A DNA stretch of 64,000 bases from Gammaproteobacteria bacterium (GTDB lineage Bacteria; Pseudomonadota; Gammaproteobacteria; SZUA-229), in contig JAOULC010000013.1 in assembly GCA_029882215.1 (NCBI GenBank), positions 1 to 64,000 of the forward strand, given 5' to 3'. This document shows, piece by piece, positions 5,013 through 13,013 of the stretch. The stretch's first letter is position 1. The number at the start of each line of letters is the position of its first letter. The position numbers and the translations under genes were made by a program. The notes beneath the pieces are model-generated. The model searched no databases and was not told the DNA's origin. It worked only from the letters and a program-made list of their open reading frames with translations.

Positions 5013-5339
5013 TTAATTAACGGCCAGCAACTCCACTTCAAAGATCAGCGTTGCATTTGGCGGAATGACACCACCCGCGCCGGCTGCACCATAACCCATT
5101 TCTGGTGGAATCGTCAGTTTACGTTTACCACCCACTCTCATACCCGCAAAACCCTGATCCCAGCCCTGAATAACCTGACCGGCACCCAGATTAAAGCCAA
5201 AAGGCTGACTACGATCTAAACTGGAATCAAATTTAGTACCGTCTTCCAGAGTACCAGTGTAATGCACCATAATTTGCTTACCGGCAACGGCTTCATCGCC
5301 TTCACCTAGTTGTAAATCATCTATAATTAATTCAGCCAT
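5013..5339 (-). CDS. FKBP-type peptidyl-prolyl cis-trans isomerase, short cytosolic form
   Basis: A single FKBP domain of 108 residues: [33 protein letters not shown] and the C-terminal [14 protein letters not shown] are all family hallmarks. It speeds cis-trans isomerisation of Xaa-Pro bonds in folding proteins. There is no signal peptide, so it is cytosolic. The open frame extends upstream to 5447, but the ATG at 5339 is preceded by a strong GAGGAAA ribosome site, and the extra 36 residues do not resemble FKBP proteins, so I place the start at 5339. A second, periplasmic FKBP with a dimerisation domain lies at 60204. Confidence 0.92.
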
Positions 5340-5443
5340 TGTATTTCCTCTATATTTAAATTTATTTGTTACTGGCAATACTAAGCAGTCTGCTCGTCGC
5401 TTATTCACTAACACGGTTAACAGCCGCACGACCGAGTTTACAC

Positions 5444-5680
5444 TCATCTCATTTTAGCGCCGATAATATCTGAAATATGCCAGCACGCTTCAGTGTAGTC
5501 GTCGGCTTTCGCACAAGCAAAGCTGTATAACACAGCGATATGCCAAGTGTGTTTATCAGCAAAACATAATTCTACTCCACCAGGTGCATAATAAGACCAT
5601 ACGATAATAGTGGAGACGTAAGTTGTAATAAGCAGTATCAACTGTACGGCTGCTAGCCTTACATTACCCCATATAAGCAT
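5444..5680 (-). CDS. possible small membrane-anchored protein, 78 aa
   Basis: The 485 bases between the FKBP start and the next gene hold only this frame. It begins with ATG at 5680 (a TTG lies just before). It would encode one hydrophobic helix near the N-terminus, [17 protein letters not shown], and then a Cys-containing soluble tail with no recognised motif. There is no clear ribosome site. I do not recognise it, and it may be a chance ORF. Confidence 0.25.
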
Positions 5681-5824
5681 CAACAGCCAGTCGTAGCGGG
5701 CGTTTAATGCTCAACTCAAACTTCCTTCATTATTATTGTTAAAACATAAGCAGGCGTAATATAACGCAACAGGTTAAAATACTGTCTTCTAATATTTTTA
5801 ACGATGTGACTTGAGCCCTCAATA

Positions 5825-6349
5825 ATGAAAAAGATCGAACAATATTTTGAAAGCTTTCTATGGAGCAGTCGCCTGTCAGTCATGGCCGCTGTTATCGCCA
5901 GTCTGGTATCCAGTCTGGCGATGTTTTATCTGATCACAATCGACACCATCTCAATGATCAGCCATATTTTACATTACGCTTCTCTTGATCAGACTGACCG
6001 TTTAATTATGCGCTCAGAAACCATTACCCATGTAGTTGAGTTAATTGACGGATATTTACTGGCAACGGTATTGCTGATCTTCTCTTTTGGCCTTTATGAA
6101 TTGTTTATCAGTAAAATCGATGCCGCTGAATCCTGTGACAATTCCTCAAAGGTTTTGTTTATCTCCAGTTTAGATGATTTAAAAGCCAGACTTGCCAAAG
6201 TCGTCCTGATGATCTTAATTGTCAAATTTTTTGAACATGCTCTGACAATGAGTTTCACAACGCCGCTCGACTTACTCGCCTTCGCAGGCGGCATTGCCTT
6301 AATCGGCCTGGCCTTATATCTTTCTCATGCCGCTGAAACCCGGCATTAA
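5825..6349 (+). CDS. YqhA/UPF0114 family inner-membrane protein
   Basis: The 174-residue protein has the size and layout of UPF0114 (YqhA): an N-terminal amphipathic stretch beginning MKKIEQYFESFLWSSR, then about four membrane helices. The second conserved block is ELIDGYLLATVLLIFSFGLY, and the segment after it, SLDDLKARLAKVVLMILIV, also matches the family. The molecular function of the family is unknown. It stands alone: FKBP is upstream on the other strand and a separate promoter serves the downstream lipoprotein gene. Confidence 0.85.
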   Translation: MKKIEQYFESFLWSSRLSVMAAVIASLVSSLAMFYLITIDTISMISHILHYASLDQTDRLIMRSETITHVVELIDGYLLATVLLIFSFGLYELFISKIDAAESCDNSSKVLFISSLDDLKARLAKVVLMILIVKFFEHALTMSFTTPLDLLAFAGGIALIGLALYLSHAAETRH

Positions 6350-6363
6350 ATATCCAGCACACT

Positions 6364-6405
6364 AACAGTGCATTAGAAGACTTAAACAGTGCATTAGAAG
6401 ACTTA
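6364..6405. repeat. perfect 21-bp tandem duplication
   Basis: The 21-bp unit at 6364-6384 is repeated exactly at 6385-6405, directly downstream of the YqhA-type gene. There are two copies and no mismatch, so the duplication is recent. It lies outside coding sequence and 45 bases upstream of the predicted promoter at 6450. Confidence 0.9.
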
Positions 6406-6449
6406 TATTAACCACAAGGCCTTAAAGTAAGCATAAAACATTTTTTACA

Positions 6450-6478
6450 TTGACTATCTTCGGGCTATCTACTAAAAC
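6450..6478 (+). promoter_or_regulatory. sigma-70-type promoter of the lipoprotein/hybrid-kinase operon
   Basis: A -35 box TTGACT (6450-6455) and a -10 box TAAAAC (6473-6478) are separated by exactly 17 bases. Transcription would start near 6485. That rules out the TTG at 6479 as the start of the next gene and supports the ATG at 6530. Confidence 0.5.
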
Positions 6479-6529
6479 TTGAAATGTGTAATTATCATGG
6501 AAAGTCTCCCAAACCGGAGCGCCTTTACA

Positions 6530-7483
6530 ATGAAGTCAAATACAGGTTTTAGTTTTCTGCTGCTGCTTATAGTGCTGCTTGGCACAGGCTGTACTGAAAA
6601 ACCTCAAACACCACTAAGAATTGGCGCCGTCCTCTGGCCTGGCTATGAGCCACTTTATTTAGCCAGTAAGCTGGGCTATTTTAAAGACCAGCCCGTTAAA
6701 ATAATCGATTATTTATCTAATACTGATGCGATTCAGGCCTTTAAAAACAATAACCTTAACGCCGCAGCCGTTACTCTGGACGAGACCCTGCAAATTCTCT
6801 CCGATGGCATAGAGGTTGATATCATTCTGATTATGGACACGTCGAATGGCGGTGATGTCATTCTTGCGAACCCCGATATCCATAGCATGCAAGAGCTGAA
6901 AGGGAAATCTGTGGCCGTTGAAAGCAGTGCAGTCGGAGCCTTTGTTTTAAGCAGGGCTCTTGAAATCAACAACATGACACTCGATCAGATACAGGTAGTT
7001 TCAACCAGCGCGATGGAACAACTCAGTAACTTTAACAACGGAAAAATAGTCGCTGCTGTTAGTTTCGACCCTTACCGTACCGCTTTGTTAAAAGCCGGTA
7101 AAAAAGAAATCTTTAACTCTACTCAAATTCCTGATGAAATTGTTGATGTGCTGGTTGTTCGTAAAAATTACCGCCAAGAAAACCCCCAGATCATCAAAAC
7201 CGTTATCAGTGCCTGGTTTGATGCACTTGCCTATCAGCGTGAAAAACCTGCAGCAAGCGCCGCCTATTCTCTAAAGCGGTTTAATAACACAACAGAAGAA
7301 TATATCAACAACTTAAAGCTACTAAAGTTTACAACAAAAGAAGAAAACCGACGTTTACTGGATAACAACAATAGCCCGCTACTACTACTACAAACAAAAA
7401 TACTGAGCATATTGAAGGAGCTTGGACTGATAGATAAACCAGCATCATTAGAGGGACGGCTGAACAAAGACTTCATCCCATAA
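6530..7483 (+). CDS. ABC-type substrate-binding lipoprotein, NMT1/SsuA-like, partner of the adjacent kinase
   Basis: The ATG at 6530 follows GGAG (11-base spacing) and gives a 317-residue precursor. Its lipoprotein signal is a hydrophobic core with GTGC at residues 18-21 (Gly rather than Leu at -3, so slightly atypical). The mature part has the NMT1/SsuA-like periplasmic fold: RIGAVLWPGYEPLYLASKLG, then KGKSVAVESSAVGAFVLSRA, typical of nitrate/sulfonate/thiamine-precursor binding proteins. No permease or ATPase gene is near. The next gene, one base away, is a hybrid histidine kinase with a periplasmic domain, so the protein probably acts as the ligand-sensing partner of the kinase. The ligand is unknown. 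Confidence 0.85.
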   Translation: MKSNTGFSFLLLLIVLLGTGCTEKPQTPLRIGAVLWPGYEPLYLASKLGYFKDQPVKIIDYLSNTDAIQAFKNNNLNAAAVTLDETLQILSDGIEVDIILIMDTSNGGDVILANPDIHSMQELKGKSVAVESSAVGAFVLSRALEINNMTLDQIQVVSTSAMEQLSNFNNGKIVAAVSFDPYRTALLKAGKKEIFNSTQIPDEIVDVLVVRKNYRQENPQIIKTVISAWFDALAYQREKPAASAAYSLKRFNNTTEEYINNLKLLKFTTKEENRRLLDNNNSPLLLLQTKILSILKELGLIDKPASLEGRLNKDFIP

Positions 7484-7484
7484 A

Positions 7485-10160
7485 ATGAACTTATTTTCCC
7501 GTTTTCCCATAATCGTCTCTTTCTTATTCATCGCTTTATTAACCAGCGCCAGTATATCCCTGTACACCTACACAAACATTTTTCACAAAGAAATCGAAGA
7601 GGCAATAAACCATGAGCTACGTAGAATAAACCAGCGTATGATAGAGCTACAGGGAACATTTAATGACTTCAATACAAGACAAGACCCTAATGCTATACAC
7701 CGCGAAGTTTCCCGTTTAAGTGGCGACAAAACCATGCAACTTATTGCCATCATCGATGAGCATTATGTCATTAAATATTCTTCGCTTATTGAGTATAGAA
7801 ACACCGCTATAATCAAGCTGCCTGAAATCAGCAGGCTAATTATGCAGCACAAGAACTTGCAAATTTCCGGTGTTATTGCGGTATCAGACAATAAAAAACA
7901 TATCACAGGTCTTTATCCTGTTAATGCCATTTCACACCCTGATAAACATCTGCCATCTCAGCACGCCTACCTTTATGGACGTTTTGATCTGCAGCACACC
8001 CTGCAAACGGTTAAATATAAACAGCAGCAGGAAATCATTCAGATATCACTGTTTCACTTCAGTTTTTTAATCAGCGGCTTCCTGTTGCTTTATATCAGTA
8101 TGCGCCACCGGATTAAATCAATCGTTCAGGCAATCAATGAGTTTTCAGATGGCCATTATGACTCAAGAGCACAACTGACAGGACGAGATGAGTTTAGCAA
8201 AATAGCCAGCGGCTTCAACACAATGGCCAAACAGGTCAGTTTGCAAAGTCAGCGCCTCAGAGAGCAGGAGCAGGACCTCAGCACGACATTAAACAGTATC
8301 GGTGATGCGGTGCTGGCGACTGATTCCAAAGGGCTGATAACACGAATGAATCCTGTGGCACAGAAACTAACCGGCTGGAACCTGCACGATGCCATTGGTA
8401 AATCAATCAATGATGTCCTGAACATGAAAGATGTCAACACCAACGAAGCTGTTACTGTGCCTATCAAACAGGTTATTACCTCAGGCGAGACCGTTTACCT
8501 GGGTTCTCACACTCTCCTGACATCAAGGCAAGGCAGCGTACATCATATCTCAGATTCAGCTGCGCCGATCAGGGACACCAACAACAAGATTCAGGGTATG
8601 GTTATCATTTTTAATGATGTCACCGAGCAGTATCGCTTACGTAAAGCAGCCTCTAAAAGCGAACGACTTTTAACATCGATCATGGATAATTCGCCCGCTG
8701 TTATTTATGTAAAAGACACTAACGGAAGGTTCACTTATATCAACAGGGAATTTGAAAAAATATTCAATCTTAAGCAGGAAAATGTCATCGGTCTTACACT
8801 GTTCGATATCTTCCCTGAAAGTGTCGCAGATGAGATGCACAAAAATGACCAAACAGTGTTTGATTCTGTTTCGATGTTACAAACCGAAGAAATAGTCCCG
8901 CAGCATGATGGTAGCCGTATTTATTCTACGATTAAATTTCCATTATTTGATGAACAGGGAAAGCCTGATGCTGTTTGCGGTATATCTACAGATATTACTA
9001 CACGCAAAAAGCAGGAGCAGCAACTTTATCAAAGTCAAAAAATGGAATCTCTCGGCAAGCTTACCGGAGGTATCGCACACGACTACAATAATATGCTGGG
9101 CATTATTCAGGGTTATTGCGAACTGCTCAAGATTGGCTTACCTGAAGACGCAAGTCTGCATGATTATACCAATGAAATTTACCATGCCTGTGAACGTGGC
9201 ACTCAGCTGAGCAAGAAGCTACTGTCCTTTTCCACCAGCAAACAGGCAGATCTGGACAGCATCAACATAAATCACTTATTAACCGAGCGCTCCGACATGC
9301 TCGAAAAGACACTGACACCACGCATTAAACTCAATTTTAATTTAGCGACAGAGCTCTGGCCTGTTAAATTAAACCTTGGCGACCTGGAAGATGCGATTAT
9401 AAATATTTGCATTAACTCAATGCATGCCATGCCAAATGGTGGCGAGCTCACTATCTGTACATCTAATGAACATTTGCCGGCAGCCACTCAGTTACAGTTG
9501 GCTGAAGGTGACTATGTAGAACTAAGTATTGCCGATAGCGGAATCGGCATGAGCAAAGAAACTCAGGAAAAAATGTTCGACCCTTTTTATACATCAAAAG
9601 GCACTAAAGGCACCGGTCTGGGTTTAAGTCAGGTCTATGGTTTTATAAAAAGCAGCAACGGCTCAATCAAAGTTGACTCCGAACAATATGCCGGCACACG
9701 CTTATCGCTCTACTTCCCCAGAGACACATCTATTGAGCAGGCACCGAGTGACTCTCTAGAAGCATCACCAGAACTGATAACAAACTTACTGGGAGCTGAA
9801 ACCATTCTTGTTGTCGATGATGAGACCGCTTTGAAAGAATTCGTCTGCACATTACTAAGAAATTACGGCTATACCGTACTCTGTGCAGACAATGGAGAAC
9901 AAGCGCTTGAAATATTAAGCCGTGAGACTGTCAATCTATTGTTCAGTGATGTCATCATGCCGGGTATGAATGGCTACCAGCTAGCAAGCACAACCCAGCA
10001 GCTTTATCCTGAGGTAAAAATCCAGTTAGCCAGTGGCTTCACTGATAAGCACCATATCGATCTGGCCGATACTAAATTACATAAGAATTTACTCTACAAA
10101 CCCTTCAAATCGGTTGAATTATTAACCCGCTTGCGGGAAATACTAGACCAGCGCATTTAA
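7485..10160 (+). CDS. hybrid sensor histidine kinase (HAMP-PAS-PAS-HisKA-HATPase-REC)
   Basis: The 891-residue membrane kinase starts one base after the lipoprotein stop. Order of parts: TM helix about 8-28, periplasmic region about 30-180, TM helix about 185-206, HAMP about 206-258, two PAS domains (about 265-380 and 390-510), HisKA with H532 in GGIAHDYNN, and the HATPase domain with DSGIGMS and TGLGLS. It ends in a receiver domain with acidic pair D778-D779, phospho-acceptor D822 (SDVIMPG) and K872. The C-terminal receiver lets phosphate pass to an unlinked regulator or modulates the kinase. No output regulator is adjacent. It likely reads the state of the upstream binding protein. Confidence 0.93.
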   Translation: MNLFSRFPIIVSFLFIALLTSASISLYTYTNIFHKEIEEAINHELRRINQRMIELQGTFNDFNTRQDPNAIHREVSRLSGDKTMQLIAIIDEHYVIKYSSLIEYRNTAIIKLPEISRLIMQHKNLQISGVIAVSDNKKHITGLYPVNAISHPDKHLPSQHAYLYGRFDLQHTLQTVKYKQQQEIIQISLFHFSFLISGFLLLYISMRHRIKSIVQAINEFSDGHYDSRAQLTGRDEFSKIASGFNTMAKQVSLQSQRLREQEQDLSTTLNSIGDAVLATDSKGLITRMNPVAQKLTGWNLHDAIGKSINDVLNMKDVNTNEAVTVPIKQVITSGETVYLGSHTLLTSRQGSVHHISDSAAPIRDTNNKIQGMVIIFNDVTEQYRLRKAASKSERLLTSIMDNSPAVIYVKDTNGRFTYINREFEKIFNLKQENVIGLTLFDIFPESVADEMHKNDQTVFDSVSMLQTEEIVPQHDGSRIYSTIKFPLFDEQGKPDAVCGISTDITTRKKQEQQLYQSQKMESLGKLTGGIAHDYNNMLGIIQGYCELLKIGLPEDASLHDYTNEIYHACERGTQLSKKLLSFSTSKQADLDSININHLLTERSDMLEKTLTPRIKLNFNLATELWPVKLNLGDLEDAIINICINSMHAMPNGGELTICTSNEHLPAATQLQLAEGDYVELSIADSGIGMSKETQEKMFDPFYTSKGTKGTGLGLSQVYGFIKSSNGSIKVDSEQYAGTRLSLYFPRDTSIEQAPSDSLEASPELITNLLGAETILVVDDETALKEFVCTLLRNYGYTVLCADNGEQALEILSRETVNLLFSDVIMPGMNGYQLASTTQQLYPEVKIQLASGFTDKHHIDLADTKLHKNLLYKPFKSVELLTRLREILDQRI

Positions 10161-10161
10161 C

Positions 10162-10191
10162 GCCAGTAGCTATTTTTCCAGCTACTCTGGC
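10162..10191 (+). terminator. stem-loop after the hybrid kinase
   Basis: GCCAG-TAGCT pairs with AGCTA-CTGGC, with a two-base bulge and an eight-base loop containing ATTTTT. It lies directly after the kinase stop. There is no T-run downstream, so intrinsic termination is uncertain. Confidence 0.35.
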
Positions 10192-10329
10192 AGGTCAACT
10201 TTGCCGTCACCATACTCTGCTGTAGCGACTCATTATCACAATACCCCTATTATTTTAACGTATCGAAATCATTTTCGAAGTGCTAAACTTAGGCTAAGAG
10301 ACTTTATTTTATTTAAGCGGAGAACGACA

Positions 10330-10707
10330 ATGTCTGCACAATTCAAGACCGAATTAACACCGGCAGAAGTGAATATTTCACCCAGCGCACAAGAGCAGTT
10401 ACTTGAAATCATCAAAGGTGAAGCCAGTGCTGAAGGTATCCGTATATTTGTTTCTGGCGGTGGCTGCAGTGGTATGACTTATGGCATGACTTATGCCGAG
10501 GGTGCCTCGCCATTTGACAGTATTCTGCAAATGGATGACCTTAAAATATTTGTTGATTCTGTGGCACTGTCTTATTTAAGCGGTGTGGAAATTGATTATA
10601 AAACAGAAGGCTTAAACAGCAGTTTTGTGTTCAAAAATGTCTTCGCAGCCACTGGTGGCTCGGGCTCATGCGGCGGCTGTGGTAGCGGCGGCGGTGGTTG
10701 CGCTTAA
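10330..10707 (+). CDS. IscA/ErpA-type iron-sulfur cluster assembly protein
   Basis: The 125-residue protein has the A-type carrier pattern: conserved Cys46 in SGGGCSGMTYG and a Cys-rich C-terminus, SCGGCGSGGGGCA. These cysteines bind and hand over an Fe-S cluster or iron to apo-proteins. The C-terminal pair is spaced C-G-G-C rather than the usual C-G-C and is followed by a glycine run with one more Cys. The frame is open to 10201, but GGAG just before the ATG at 10330 and the family alignment fix the start there. No isc or suf operon is nearby. It precedes an ATP-grasp gene by 9 bases and is probably cotranscribed with it. Confidence 0.88.
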   Translation: MSAQFKTELTPAEVNISPSAQEQLLEIIKGEASAEGIRIFVSGGGCSGMTYGMTYAEGASPFDSILQMDDLKIFVDSVALSYLSGVEIDYKTEGLNSSFVFKNVFAATGGSGSCGGCGSGGGGCA

Positions 10708-10716
10708 TACCCCGTC

Positions 10717-11976
10717 TTGAACGCATCACCCACTGCCCGGCGGCTGCTGATTATTGCACCACCGGGCAGTTACCGGCTTGCACCATACCTCACAGCAGCA
10801 AAGCATTTTAAGCTGACAGCGGTTATTGCTTCGACCAGCAGCTTTGGCATGTTGCCAGCTGGCTGCGACGGCATTCATATTGACCTCAACCGGCCCGATC
10901 TTGCACTACTTAAACTCATTGAATTAGCTGACAAAACGCCTTTCATCGGTGTTCTGGGCACAGAAGACAACACCATTGAACTGGCTGCCAAAATCGCTGC
11001 TCATTTAAACTTACCCCACAACCCCAGCGCAGCCACTCGCCTGACTCAGCGTAAAGATCTGGCAAGGGCCTTTTTATCGCACGCCGGCATTAATGTTCCC
11101 TGGCATAAAAAAATTCATATCGATGATGATATCAACGGCTTCAATGATATTCCTTATCCGGTCGTCATCAAGCCGCTCAACCTGTCTGCCAGCCGCGGAG
11201 TCATCCGCGCTGACAATGCTGTTGAATTACAGCAGGCAATCAATACGGTACGGCCAATCATTCAGGACACCTACGAGCCGGAAGCAAAAACACATGTTTT
11301 AATCGAGCAGTACATTGCCGGCGCTGAAATCGCACTGGAGTGTTTATTAGATGGTAACGATCTCACTGCGCTGGCCATTTTCGATAAACCGGATCCGCTG
11401 GAAGGCCCGTATTTTGAAGAAACCTATTACATTACACCATCACGTATACCACAAGCGGTGCTGAATGACTGCCAGCAAGAAGTGCTTCGCTGTTGCCAGG
11501 CGTATGGCTTAACAACCGGACCAATCCATGCGGAGTGCCGTATTGATGAGAATAATAAACCCTGGATACTGGAAGTAGCGGCGCGAACCATTGGCGGTGA
11601 CTGTGGCCAGAGCCTGAAGCCTTCTGCCAGTCATAGTCTGGAGCAGCTGGTCATTAGCTATGCCATTGGCGAGCCGGTCAGCATCGAGCCACAAAACTAT
11701 AGCTCCGGTGTACTGATGATACCCACACCTAAAGCCGGTATTCTGAAACGGGTAGAAGGCATACTCGAGGCGCAAAAAGTTGAACACATTACTTCACTGA
11801 CCATCGATATTCCGCTGGGTAATGAAGTCAATTGTTTACCCGCCTCATCAAGTTACCTTGGTTTTATCTTTGCCGAGGCAGAGACAGCCGAAGAAGTTGA
11901 AGGAGCATTACGCAACGCGCATGCAAAGCTTAAATTTACCATTTCACCGGTCTGGCACATTAATAACTCACATTAA
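10717..11976 (+). CDS. ATP-grasp domain protein of unknown substrate
   Basis: The 419-residue protein starts with TTG nine bases after the IscA-type gene, and no ATG fits the N-terminal domain. It has an N-terminal Rossmann-like segment (LLIIAPPGSYRLAPYLTAA), the ATP-grasp lid (YPVVIKPLNLSASRGVIRA) and the catalytic region with EQYIAGAEIALE and ILEVAARTIGGDC. The latter resembles carnosine-synthase, BL00235 and PurK/biotin-carboxylase-type ligases. It should couple ATP cleavage to an acyl-phosphate and amide or thioester bond. The substrate is not apparent from the context. Pairing with an Fe-S carrier may be incidental. Confidence 0.82.
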   Translation: MNASPTARRLLIIAPPGSYRLAPYLTAAKHFKLTAVIASTSSFGMLPAGCDGIHIDLNRPDLALLKLIELADKTPFIGVLGTEDNTIELAAKIAAHLNLPHNPSAATRLTQRKDLARAFLSHAGINVPWHKKIHIDDDINGFNDIPYPVVIKPLNLSASRGVIRADNAVELQQAINTVRPIIQDTYEPEAKTHVLIEQYIAGAEIALECLLDGNDLTALAIFDKPDPLEGPYFEETYYITPSRIPQAVLNDCQQEVLRCCQAYGLTTGPIHAECRIDENNKPWILEVAARTIGGDCGQSLKPSASHSLEQLVISYAIGEPVSIEPQNYSSGVLMIPTPKAGILKRVEGILEAQKVEHITSLTIDIPLGNEVNCLPASSSYLGFIFAEAETAEEVEGALRNAHAKLKFTISPVWHINNSH

Positions 11977-12086
11977 ACAATTAACCATCTGCAAATGTTA
12001 TTTCAACGCTCACATTTTTCTGATGCTCTTGAGTTAAAAATACCATAGACTCTTAGCCATTATTTAAAAAAAACCAGAACGGCATC

Positions 12087-13013
12087 ATGCTCAAAAAACT
12101 TCAACGATTTCTCGGCGTCGAACGCTCAAGCACCAGCAACAGTGACAAAACAATTGCCACGATCGGCGGCATGATTGGCATCTCAGCAACCTATCTCATC
12201 AGTTATTTAACACTTGATGCAGAATCTGCTGCTCTTATCGTACCGTCGATGGGAGCCTCGGCTGTGCTTTTATTTGCCGTTCCACACGGCCCGTTATCCC
12301 AGCCCTGGTCATTATTTATGGGCCATCTTATATCGGCGTTTGTCGGTGTTTGTTGCTATCTTCTGGTACCTGATATCATTCTGGCTGCCGGTCTGGCGGT
12401 TGGTTTATCAATCGGCGCGATGCACGCGTTAAACTGTATTCACCCGCCCGGTGGTGCCACCGCACTTGCTGCCGTCATTGGCGGACCAGTCATTCATGAA
12501 CTTGGCTTTATGTACATTCTGTCGCCTATCTATATCAATGTACTGGTGATCTTCATCGTCGCCATTATCTTTAACAGCGCTTTTGCCTGGCGTCGCTACC
12601 CTGTCTGCATGATGCGCTTTATCGACAACAAGGATGATATTGTTCCGGCAAAACAGCGTTCACCATTAAAAGATCAGCATATCGAGCAGGCCATTAAGGA
12701 TATGAACCTGATTGTCGATGTCACTACTGCCGATTTACAGCGACTGTTTTTATTATCACTGAAACACAGCGAATCTGACCGGCTTCAGCCTAAAGATATT
12801 TTGCTTGGTCACTATTACAGCAATGGCAAGCACGGTAAGTCCTGGTCGGTTAGGCAGGTGATTGATGAGTCACCAAATCCGGAGCCCGACAATGACCTGA
12901 TCATTTACCGTTGCTCTGAAGGCGCGCATTACGGCCGCAGCAATAGTTGTACACGCGAGCAGTTTGCCCGCTGGGCAGCAAAGGAAGTGATTAAGAACTC
13001 GAGCGAACACTAA
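12087..13013 (+). CDS. HPP family integral membrane protein
   Basis: The first 175 residues hold about four membrane helices with the HPP family signature HPPGGATAL (near residue 127) and SMGASAVLLFAVP, which pack in related proteins into a small transporter-like unit. HPP proteins have been linked to nitrite transport in plastids and cyanobacteria, but the bacterial function is not general knowledge. The C-terminal 130 residues are soluble and lack the CBS pair found in some HPP proteins; I see no known domain there. The gene ends at a bidirectional terminator. Confidence 0.88.
   Translation: MLKKLQRFLGVERSSTSNSDKTIATIGGMIGISATYLISYLTLDAESAALIVPSMGASAVLLFAVPHGPLSQPWSLFMGHLISAFVGVCCYLLVPDIILAAGLAVGLSIGAMHALNCIHPPGGATALAAVIGGPVIHELGFMYILSPIYINVLVIFIVAIIFNSAFAWRRYPVCMMRFIDNKDDIVPAKQRSPLKDQHIEQAIKDMNLIVDVTTADLQRLFLLSLKHSESDRLQPKDILLGHYYSNGKHGKSWSVRQVIDESPNPEPDNDLIIYRCSEGAHYGRSNSCTREQFARWAAKEVIKNSSEH

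Follow-up and report, generated by a model that had tools for sequence, protein, structure and literature searches.

Gene pair and neighborhood

Here, we describe two adjacent plus-strand genes, one for an NMT1/SsuA-type solute-binding lipoprotein and one for a hybrid sensor histidine kinase, in a 64,000-nucleotide stretch of DNA (the window; positions 1 to 64,000 of contig JAOULC010000013.1, GenBank assembly GCA_029882215.1) from a gammaproteobacterium of the lineage SZUA-229. The pair very probably forms a bipartite extracytoplasmic receptor, an input module with interchangeable outputs. A single base (7484) separates the two genes, and Pfam and a structural model of the periplasmic Cache domain agree with the arrangement given in a preliminary description of this DNA (Table 1). 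For most bacterial membrane receptors the signal has yet to be identified, one reason being that some bind it via a separate binding protein (PMC11113362); the introduction of that paper mentions couples of a solute-binding protein (SBP) and a kinase.

The binding protein matches PF09084 (E 6.7e-18) and PF13379 (E 5.1e-17) and has the SsuA/TauA fold, with no PotD-type family among the matches listed. Its top NCBIfam model, SsuA_fam, scores 115 bits, under the 163.5-bit cut-off of that model, and the TIGR03427 (urea-carboxylase-associated) and taurine models also match below cut-off. A signal peptide with the lipobox LGTGC (Cys21) marks it as a predicted lipoprotein. In its AlphaFold2 (AF2) model the predicted local distance difference test score (pLDDT) is 96.6, and the top Foldseek match is TauA (6ssy; template modeling (TM) score 0.87), followed by SsuA (2x26).

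The kinase has the order transmembrane segment, periplasmic domain, transmembrane segment, HAMP, PAS, PAS, HisKA, HATPase_c, Response_reg. Hydrophobic segments at about residues 1-28 and 183-206 flank the extracytoplasmic domain (hydropathy; Cache model), so that the pair has both the adjacent genes and the domain between two membrane spans of an SBP-activated sensor kinase. The AF2 model of this domain (pLDDT 93.7, predicted TM score 0.86) is most similar in Foldseek to the WalK extracellular domain (E 2.2e-5, TM score 0.50), then to KinD and CitA; no Pfam family was recognised for it. The H-box GGIAHDYNN (His532), the N and G boxes and the receiver residues Asp822 and Lys872 are all present, as expected of a hybrid histidine kinase.

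No importer permease was found in the reading frames of the window with a profile from three importer permeases of the same genome, and an ATPase profile from the importers of this genome gave three very weak matches, at 40-43.6 kb. The adjacent permease and ATPase genes of a NitT/TauT-type ATP-binding cassette (ABC) importer are thus missing from the neighborhood, as the preliminary description had it. It was also right that the kinase ends in its own receiver (PF00072) with no output regulator beside it: no separate response regulator was found among the neighbors scanned at 5013-13013 (FKBP, UPF0114, IscA-like, ATP-grasp and HPP proteins). Promoter-like matches in the window were not above shuffles (9 vs 9.3 expected); terminator-like sites numbered 10 vs 3.6 expected, but lie mostly within genes.

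Table 1. Features of the lipoprotein-kinase gene pair in the window
Feature	Coordinates	Strand	Basis
NMT1/SsuA-type solute-binding lipoprotein, 317 aa	6530..7483	+	ATG 6530 to stop ending 7483; Pfam PF09084/PF13379
Lipobox Cys codon (residue 21)	6590..6592	+	read from sequence, LGTGC
Hybrid sensor histidine kinase, 891 aa	7485..10160	+	ATG 7485; Pfam; catalytic motifs present
Periplasmic single-Cache sensor domain (~residues 27-185)	7563..8039	+	AF2 and Foldseek; no Pfam family
HAMP	8100..8234	+	PF00672, residues 206-250
PAS 1	8274..8621	+	PF00989, residues 264-379
PAS 2	8685..9008	+	PF08448, residues 401-508
HisKA and HATPase_c	9051..9725	+	PF00512, PF02518, residues 523-747; H/N/G boxes
C-terminal receiver	9804..10133	+	PF00072, residues 774-883; Asp822, Lys872

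Homologues of the lipoprotein

A profile of the four lipoproteins of this type in the window's own genome was searched against 370 genomes of the class, 77 of which (the own genome included) matched at E<=1e-30. There were 95 matches outside the own genome; 81 neighborhoods were compared and 14 matches, all of about 116 bits or less, were left out. At 190 bits or more, a line chosen after the table had been seen, 41 of 44 homologues precede a membrane signaling protein, and none is directly followed by a permease. The partners are kinases (12), GGDEF-EAL proteins (19), GGDEF proteins (7) and one HAMP-SpoIIE protein, together with a HAMP-PAS protein and a HAMP protein truncated by the end of its contig, in neither of which an output was recognised. 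Three homologues (L155, L170 and L178) are without a recognised partner. Pfam finds HATPase_c in 12, GGDEF in 26, EAL in 19 and SpoIIE in 1 of the 41 partners. Within its first 500 residues, every partner has one or more hydrophobic segments, and 36 have at least two. Of the 37 homologues below 190 bits, the next gene encodes a permease in 20 cases, an ATPase in 1 and a sensor in 6; the other 10 have a different gene or none after them.

The preliminary description had predicted a sensor co-receptor role and had proposed this neighborhood comparison, with homologues beside permeases expected if it was wrong. Since 41 of the 44 close homologues are followed by a signaling partner and none by a permease, the pairing is conserved and these homologues do not go with permeases, which supports the predicted role, physical contact between the two proteins being the inferred part. 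Two of its expectations hold in part: the pairing is kept in relatives, with the window's own copy not found in genus-mates, and the kinase is the partner in the window, as only one of several output types among the relatives.

A pattern-based scan of GTDB genomes yielded 80 loci with 81 lipoprotein open reading frames (ORFs) in Pseudomonadota, Nitrospirota, Nitrospinota, Planctomycetota, Aquificota, Spirochaetota, Verrucomicrobiota, Thermodesulfobacteriota and other phyla; because the patterns came from the four own-genome paralogues, these loci are a less neutral set than the class sample. Again no lipoprotein (0/81) is followed by a permease. Sixty-six precede a kinase or GGDEF protein, 6 precede a HAMP protein with an output that is unrecognised or cut off, 8 have no recognised partner (L045, L064, L069 and L111 at or near a contig end), and in 1 case a second binding protein follows in tandem. 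Merging both sets and removing four shared loci left 126 lipoproteins at >=176 bits, 106 of them with a kinase or GGDEF partner. Among 77 downstream proteins (alignments A3, 39, and A4, 38; three from the own genome), Pfam finds GGDEF in 39, HATPase_c in 30, EAL in 28 and HAMP in 63, with no permease or ABC ATPase family among the families listed (25 of 29 for A3, all 20 for A4). The distance between lipoprotein and partner is -50 to +30 bp in 98 of 104 distinct classified pairs, 44 of which overlap by 4 bp. On plasmids, two partial tblastn matches were the only ones. Six long lipoprotein ORFs (L057, L058, L072, L079, L080 and L165) were considered as fusions (Rosetta-stone evidence) and rejected, because each has an internal lipoprotein signal, and the part upstream of it looks like an artefact of a G+C-rich frame.

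Shared input domain and exchange of outputs

The classified partners, 107 with the window's kinase, include 10 with a PhnD-type input and 5 atypical ones; these were set aside, leaving 39 kinases and 53 cyclases. One Cache-type periplasmic domain is common to 93 of the 107. The Cache regions of kinases and cyclases form one family (hhalign probability 100, E 1e-39): a kinase-derived profile matches 53 of 53 cyclases and a cyclase-derived profile 39 of 39 kinases. Neither profile matches any of the 10 PhnD-type sensors, and each picks up one of the 5 atypical partners. Pfam dCache_1 matches weakly in 9 of 97 aligned Cache members. Earlier Cache and distance analyses, which still included some PhnD-type sensors and are superseded, pointed the same way (hhalign E 1.5e-29; correlations 0.47 and 0.52). 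In a reciprocal search of the class sample, own genome included, with Cache alignment A5 (still holding some PhnD-type rows), 29 of 33 strong matches (E<=1e-20) adjoin lipoprotein places already found there.

Lipoprotein and Cache domain diverge together. For the 39 kinases, lipoprotein distances correlate with those of the Cache domain (Spearman 0.50) and hardly with those of the catalytic domain (0.04), and Cache and catalytic domain, on the same polypeptide, are at 0.01. For the 53 cyclases, the lipoprotein correlation is 0.47 with the Cache and 0.13 with the catalytic domain. No permutation (0/500) reached the observed lipoprotein-Cache correlation.

Outputs have changed repeatedly; across relatives they are histidine kinase, diguanylate cyclase, cyclase-phosphodiesterase and, once, SpoIIE phosphatase. 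A quick maximum-likelihood tree of 111 binding proteins, from which ten loci with odd inputs were left out, needs at least 19 changes between kinase and cyclic di-GMP (c-di-GMP) output, and the starred branches alone force at least 7 changes for the kinase label. It places 11 urea-carboxylase-associated importer proteins on one side of a branch with a Shimodaira-Hasegawa-like approximate likelihood ratio (SH-aLRT) of 100. Widening the tree to 139 rows, which brings in every one of the 22 importer-neighbored rows and most of those previously left out, keeps the importers on one side (SH-aLRT 93) and raises the output changes to 22; one row, L016, an importer protein beside a kinase, is mislabeled there as a sensor. 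The sister of the window's lipoprotein, fully supported in both trees, is that of Thiomicrospira sp. WB1 (L038; 55% identical), whose partner is a HAMP-GGDEF-EAL protein. The Cache domain of that partner is also the closest to the window's (29% identity; others at most 20%).

We read the pair as a reusable two-piece sensor and not a transporter, because its relatives keep the lipoprotein and usually the sensor domain but swap the output. The fourth kind of output, a HAMP-SpoIIE phosphatase, follows a lipoprotein of the same type at L153:2786-4468.

Points against a two-piece sensor and alternative explanations

Several observations weigh against this reading. Among the 41 class partners, HAMP is found by Pfam in only 28, and in 10 a fused PhnD-type binding domain replaces the Cache domain. 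Cache and catalytic domain also correlate in the 53 cyclases (0.43, vs 0.01 in kinases), so that modularity is less clean there, and the lipoprotein-Cache correlation could be partly due to neighboring DNA, the lipoprotein gene lying next to the Cache-coding end. A paralogue in the own genome (contig C28, L012:6818-7765) has no adjacent kinase or sensor. The pair itself is absent from the syntenic site of genus-mate G002, where 223 bp lie between UPF0114 and IscA. Of the 128 rows that reach 190 bits when both sets are pooled with the own genome, 12 have an ATPase-profile match in their locus. One homologue, L178 (232 bits), has a TOBE-type importer ATPase just upstream and no sensor, and may belong to an importer despite its place in the sensor branch. 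Lastly, 4 of the 33 strong Cache matches (G064, G124, G137:C363 and G304:C28) have no lipoprotein within about 1.3 kb upstream, so that the Cache domain can occur alone, and one published study cautions that the products of SBP and kinase genes can be neighbors without interacting (PMC11113362).

Could the lipoprotein be an ordinary importer part that serves a distant ABC permease and stands before the kinase only for co-regulation? Its TauA/SsuA fold, homologous to that of the binding proteins of NitT/TauT-type importers (SsuA, TauA, TIGR03427), would fit, as would L178 and the four own-genome permeases related to that of the importer on contig C142 (itself counted). Three of these four, however, have their own binding protein next door (the fourth is on C30), and permeases are absent after the close homologues in both sets. 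The importer-permease profile has no match in the loci of the 128 rows, and among five ATPase matches checked, L146 and L172 look like ABC-F (soluble) proteins, that of L013 (contig C34) goes with FtsX proteins and that of L071 is untyped. Permease-neighbored proteins reach at most 187 (L189) and 175 bits (L191) and fall on one side of the branch described above. They also differ in the anchor: a Cys stands in the aligned lipobox column of 94 of 106 sensor-paired proteins vs none of the 11 urea-carboxylase-associated importer-type homologues compared, which have an adjacent permease, and the strict lipobox pattern occurs in 79 of 105 sensor-paired vs 0 of 22 permease-neighbored proteins. We therefore regard a role as an importer part as very improbable.

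It is also unlikely, if less so, that the kinase senses a ligand of its own via the Cache domain and that the lipoprotein, as a modulator or scavenger, adjusts how much ligand is available but does not touch the kinase. Cache domains commonly bind ligands directly, and the lone Cache domains noted above would suit such an arrangement. For AgtS and AruS, adjacency with no interaction detected is on record (PMC11113362). The frequent pairing, tight spacing and correlated divergence of lipoprotein and sensor across many phyla weigh against it.

In 10 of the 107 partner sensors the fused domain is PF12974 (PhnD-type), a binding-protein family other than the NMT1 type. These sensors stand beside an NMT1-type lipoprotein at L168, L169, L172, L173, L177, L181, L183, L185, L186 and L187, and two different binding modules may feed one sensor there.

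Proposed mechanism and known systems

In the two-piece sensor as we propose it, the membrane-anchored lipoprotein, kin of importer binding proteins, would capture a small molecule in the periplasm and, ligand-bound or empty, dock on the single Cache domain of the kinase. Docking would shift the geometry of Cache domain, transmembrane segments and HAMP and so set kinase activity. Phosphoryl groups would then pass to the kinase's own receiver and on to a histidine phosphotransfer (Hpt) protein and a regulator encoded elsewhere, giving the output. Elsewhere, the same lipoprotein-Cache input would be reused with a diguanylate cyclase, cyclase-phosphodiesterase or phosphatase output. The lipoprotein-kinase contact, the direction of the signal, the ligand and the partner Hpt protein and regulator are what we infer here.

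In LuxP-LuxQ and TorT-TorS, a separate binding protein gates a hybrid kinase through its periplasmic domain; the families of binding protein and sensor domain are not known to be those of the window pair, and the ligands are known. By analogy, the window pair works like LuxP-LuxQ and like NspS-MbaA of Vibrio cholerae and Sinorhizobium meliloti. In the latter, according to PMC9993111, the binding-protein gene lies directly before, and overlaps, that of a sensor with a periplasmic domain between transmembrane segments and a HAMP domain, and signals go to c-di-GMP enzymes; several relatives of the window pair share the GGDEF-EAL output. In contrast, NspS is PotD-like where the window's lipoprotein is NMT1/SsuA-like, the periplasmic part of MbaA is longer (24-256 in S. 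meliloti, vs about 27-185 for the window's Cache domain), and the output is GGDEF-EAL where the window protein is a kinase with varied outputs among its relatives. The window pair is thus not a member of the NspS-MbaA family, because both binding-protein family and output differ. RsbQ-RsbP is likewise a two-gene sensing module (45 pairs) with phosphatase, kinase or diguanylate cyclase outputs, but with an alpha/beta-hydrolase and a PAS domain (PMC3183031) in place of the periplasmic lipoprotein and Cache domain of the window pair.

No description of the NMT1-type family as sensor co-receptors was recognised in the literature searched, a search outside which most subscription papers lay. According to one paper, 13 of 22 SBP families had been found to interact with receptors (PMC9602780), and a review of c-di-GMP sensing has SBP_bac_3 as the only family of the periplasmic-binding-protein clan studied there (PMC8846402). 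With lipoproteins of this type, 106 kinases and c-di-GMP enzymes found across many phyla gain a candidate co-receptor. The module constitutes a natural input-swap series, and a single ligand screen on the soluble lipoprotein could name the input of several outputs together.

Ligand

The preliminary description left the ligand class open; several conserved residues are common with a guanidine-importer-like branch. A comparison of 106 sensor-type and 11 importer-type sequences shows W36, G38, an aromatic residue at 39, T82, D103, S105, G107, D109, E131 and D206 common to both types, with W36, T82, D103, S105, G107, D109, E131 and D206 among those that are strongly conserved. In profile alignments to TauA/SsuA, D103 and E131 stand opposite non-acidic residues and D109 opposite Glu. 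A Guanidine-I or -II riboswitch is found at 4 of the 11 urea-carboxylase-associated importer-type loci. One locus of importer type in the own genome (C142; L014, 4216-9088) carries the binding protein, permease, ATPase and two DUF1989 proteins, then a Guanidine-II riboswitch at 9040-9088, and probably serves guanidine uptake and breakdown. The shared residues and these riboswitches suggest a small cationic ligand for the window's lipoprotein, a small cationic nitrogen compound being our best guess.

More narrowly, the ligand might be guanidine or another small guanidinium or amidine, with the sensor derived from the binding protein of a guanidine importer, a proposal that is compatible with a two-piece sensor. 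It draws on the same residues, the riboswitches and the DUF1989 locus, yet no riboswitch scored above gathering threshold at the window, at the own-genome loci C28, C34 and C39 or at 27 sensor loci elsewhere, and no guanidine riboswitch was found at the low-scoring cyclase loci L193, L200, L203 and L209. In addition, residues 40-42 and 83-84 differ between sensor and importer types, so the binding pocket may have changed, and the C34 paralogue is without some of the shared residues. We hold guanidine-like ligands to be rather unlikely candidates. A broader scenario is equally tentative: a previously undescribed receptor class of many phyla would have arisen from a guanidine-importer-type binding protein by acquisition of a lipid anchor, loss of the permease and union with a Cache domain, the cassette being re-plugged into kinases, c-di-GMP enzymes and a phosphatase and reporting a guanidinium-like or other small cationic nitrogen compound.

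Related loci in the own genome and genus-mates

Seven places in the own genome match the window's lipoprotein, itself counted. Three are paralogues of 34-39% identity, two of which (C39 and C34) lie beside a sensor kinase gene with no base between, giving three lipoprotein-sensor pairs in this genome. On C39, a helix-turn-helix receiver protein precedes the lipoprotein, and a receiver protein and a receiver-PAS-kinase follow the kinase. The three weaker matches (C142, C14 and C94) adjoin permease and ATPase genes.

In genus-mate G002, the order of the BioD, FKBP, UPF0114, IscA-like and ATP-grasp genes is that of the window; the G002 assembly is 68% complete, yet the syntenic site is intact. 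On C85 of G002, a kinase shares 53% identity with residues 257-887 of the window's kinase and has a different N-terminal input region, with a weak 4HB_MCP_1 match under cut-off. Because the syntenic site lacks the pair and the C85 kinase has another input, the window pair looks like a gain that joined a lineage-native kinase body with a mobile input, the direction of change being the conjectural part. Other pairs of the same kind do occur in genus-mates: both G001 and G003 carry the C34 and C39 pairs, among neighbors of the same types.

The C34 pair (L013:820-4755) is divergent from genes for a LolA-like protein, FtsX-type permeases and an ABC ATPase, and genes of the same size are found there in G003. 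In G005 and G017, genomes of the same family, the nearest relatives of the C28 lipoprotein (46-51% identical) lie directly against a large downstream ORF, which encodes a GGDEF protein in G005. At L271 (G001, C47), two binding protein-kinase pairs lie in tandem, the second binding protein being of a distant NMT1 type. In the group below 190 bits, a fatty-acid desaturase gene follows an importer-like binding protein, in the permease's place, at L192, L199 and L202.

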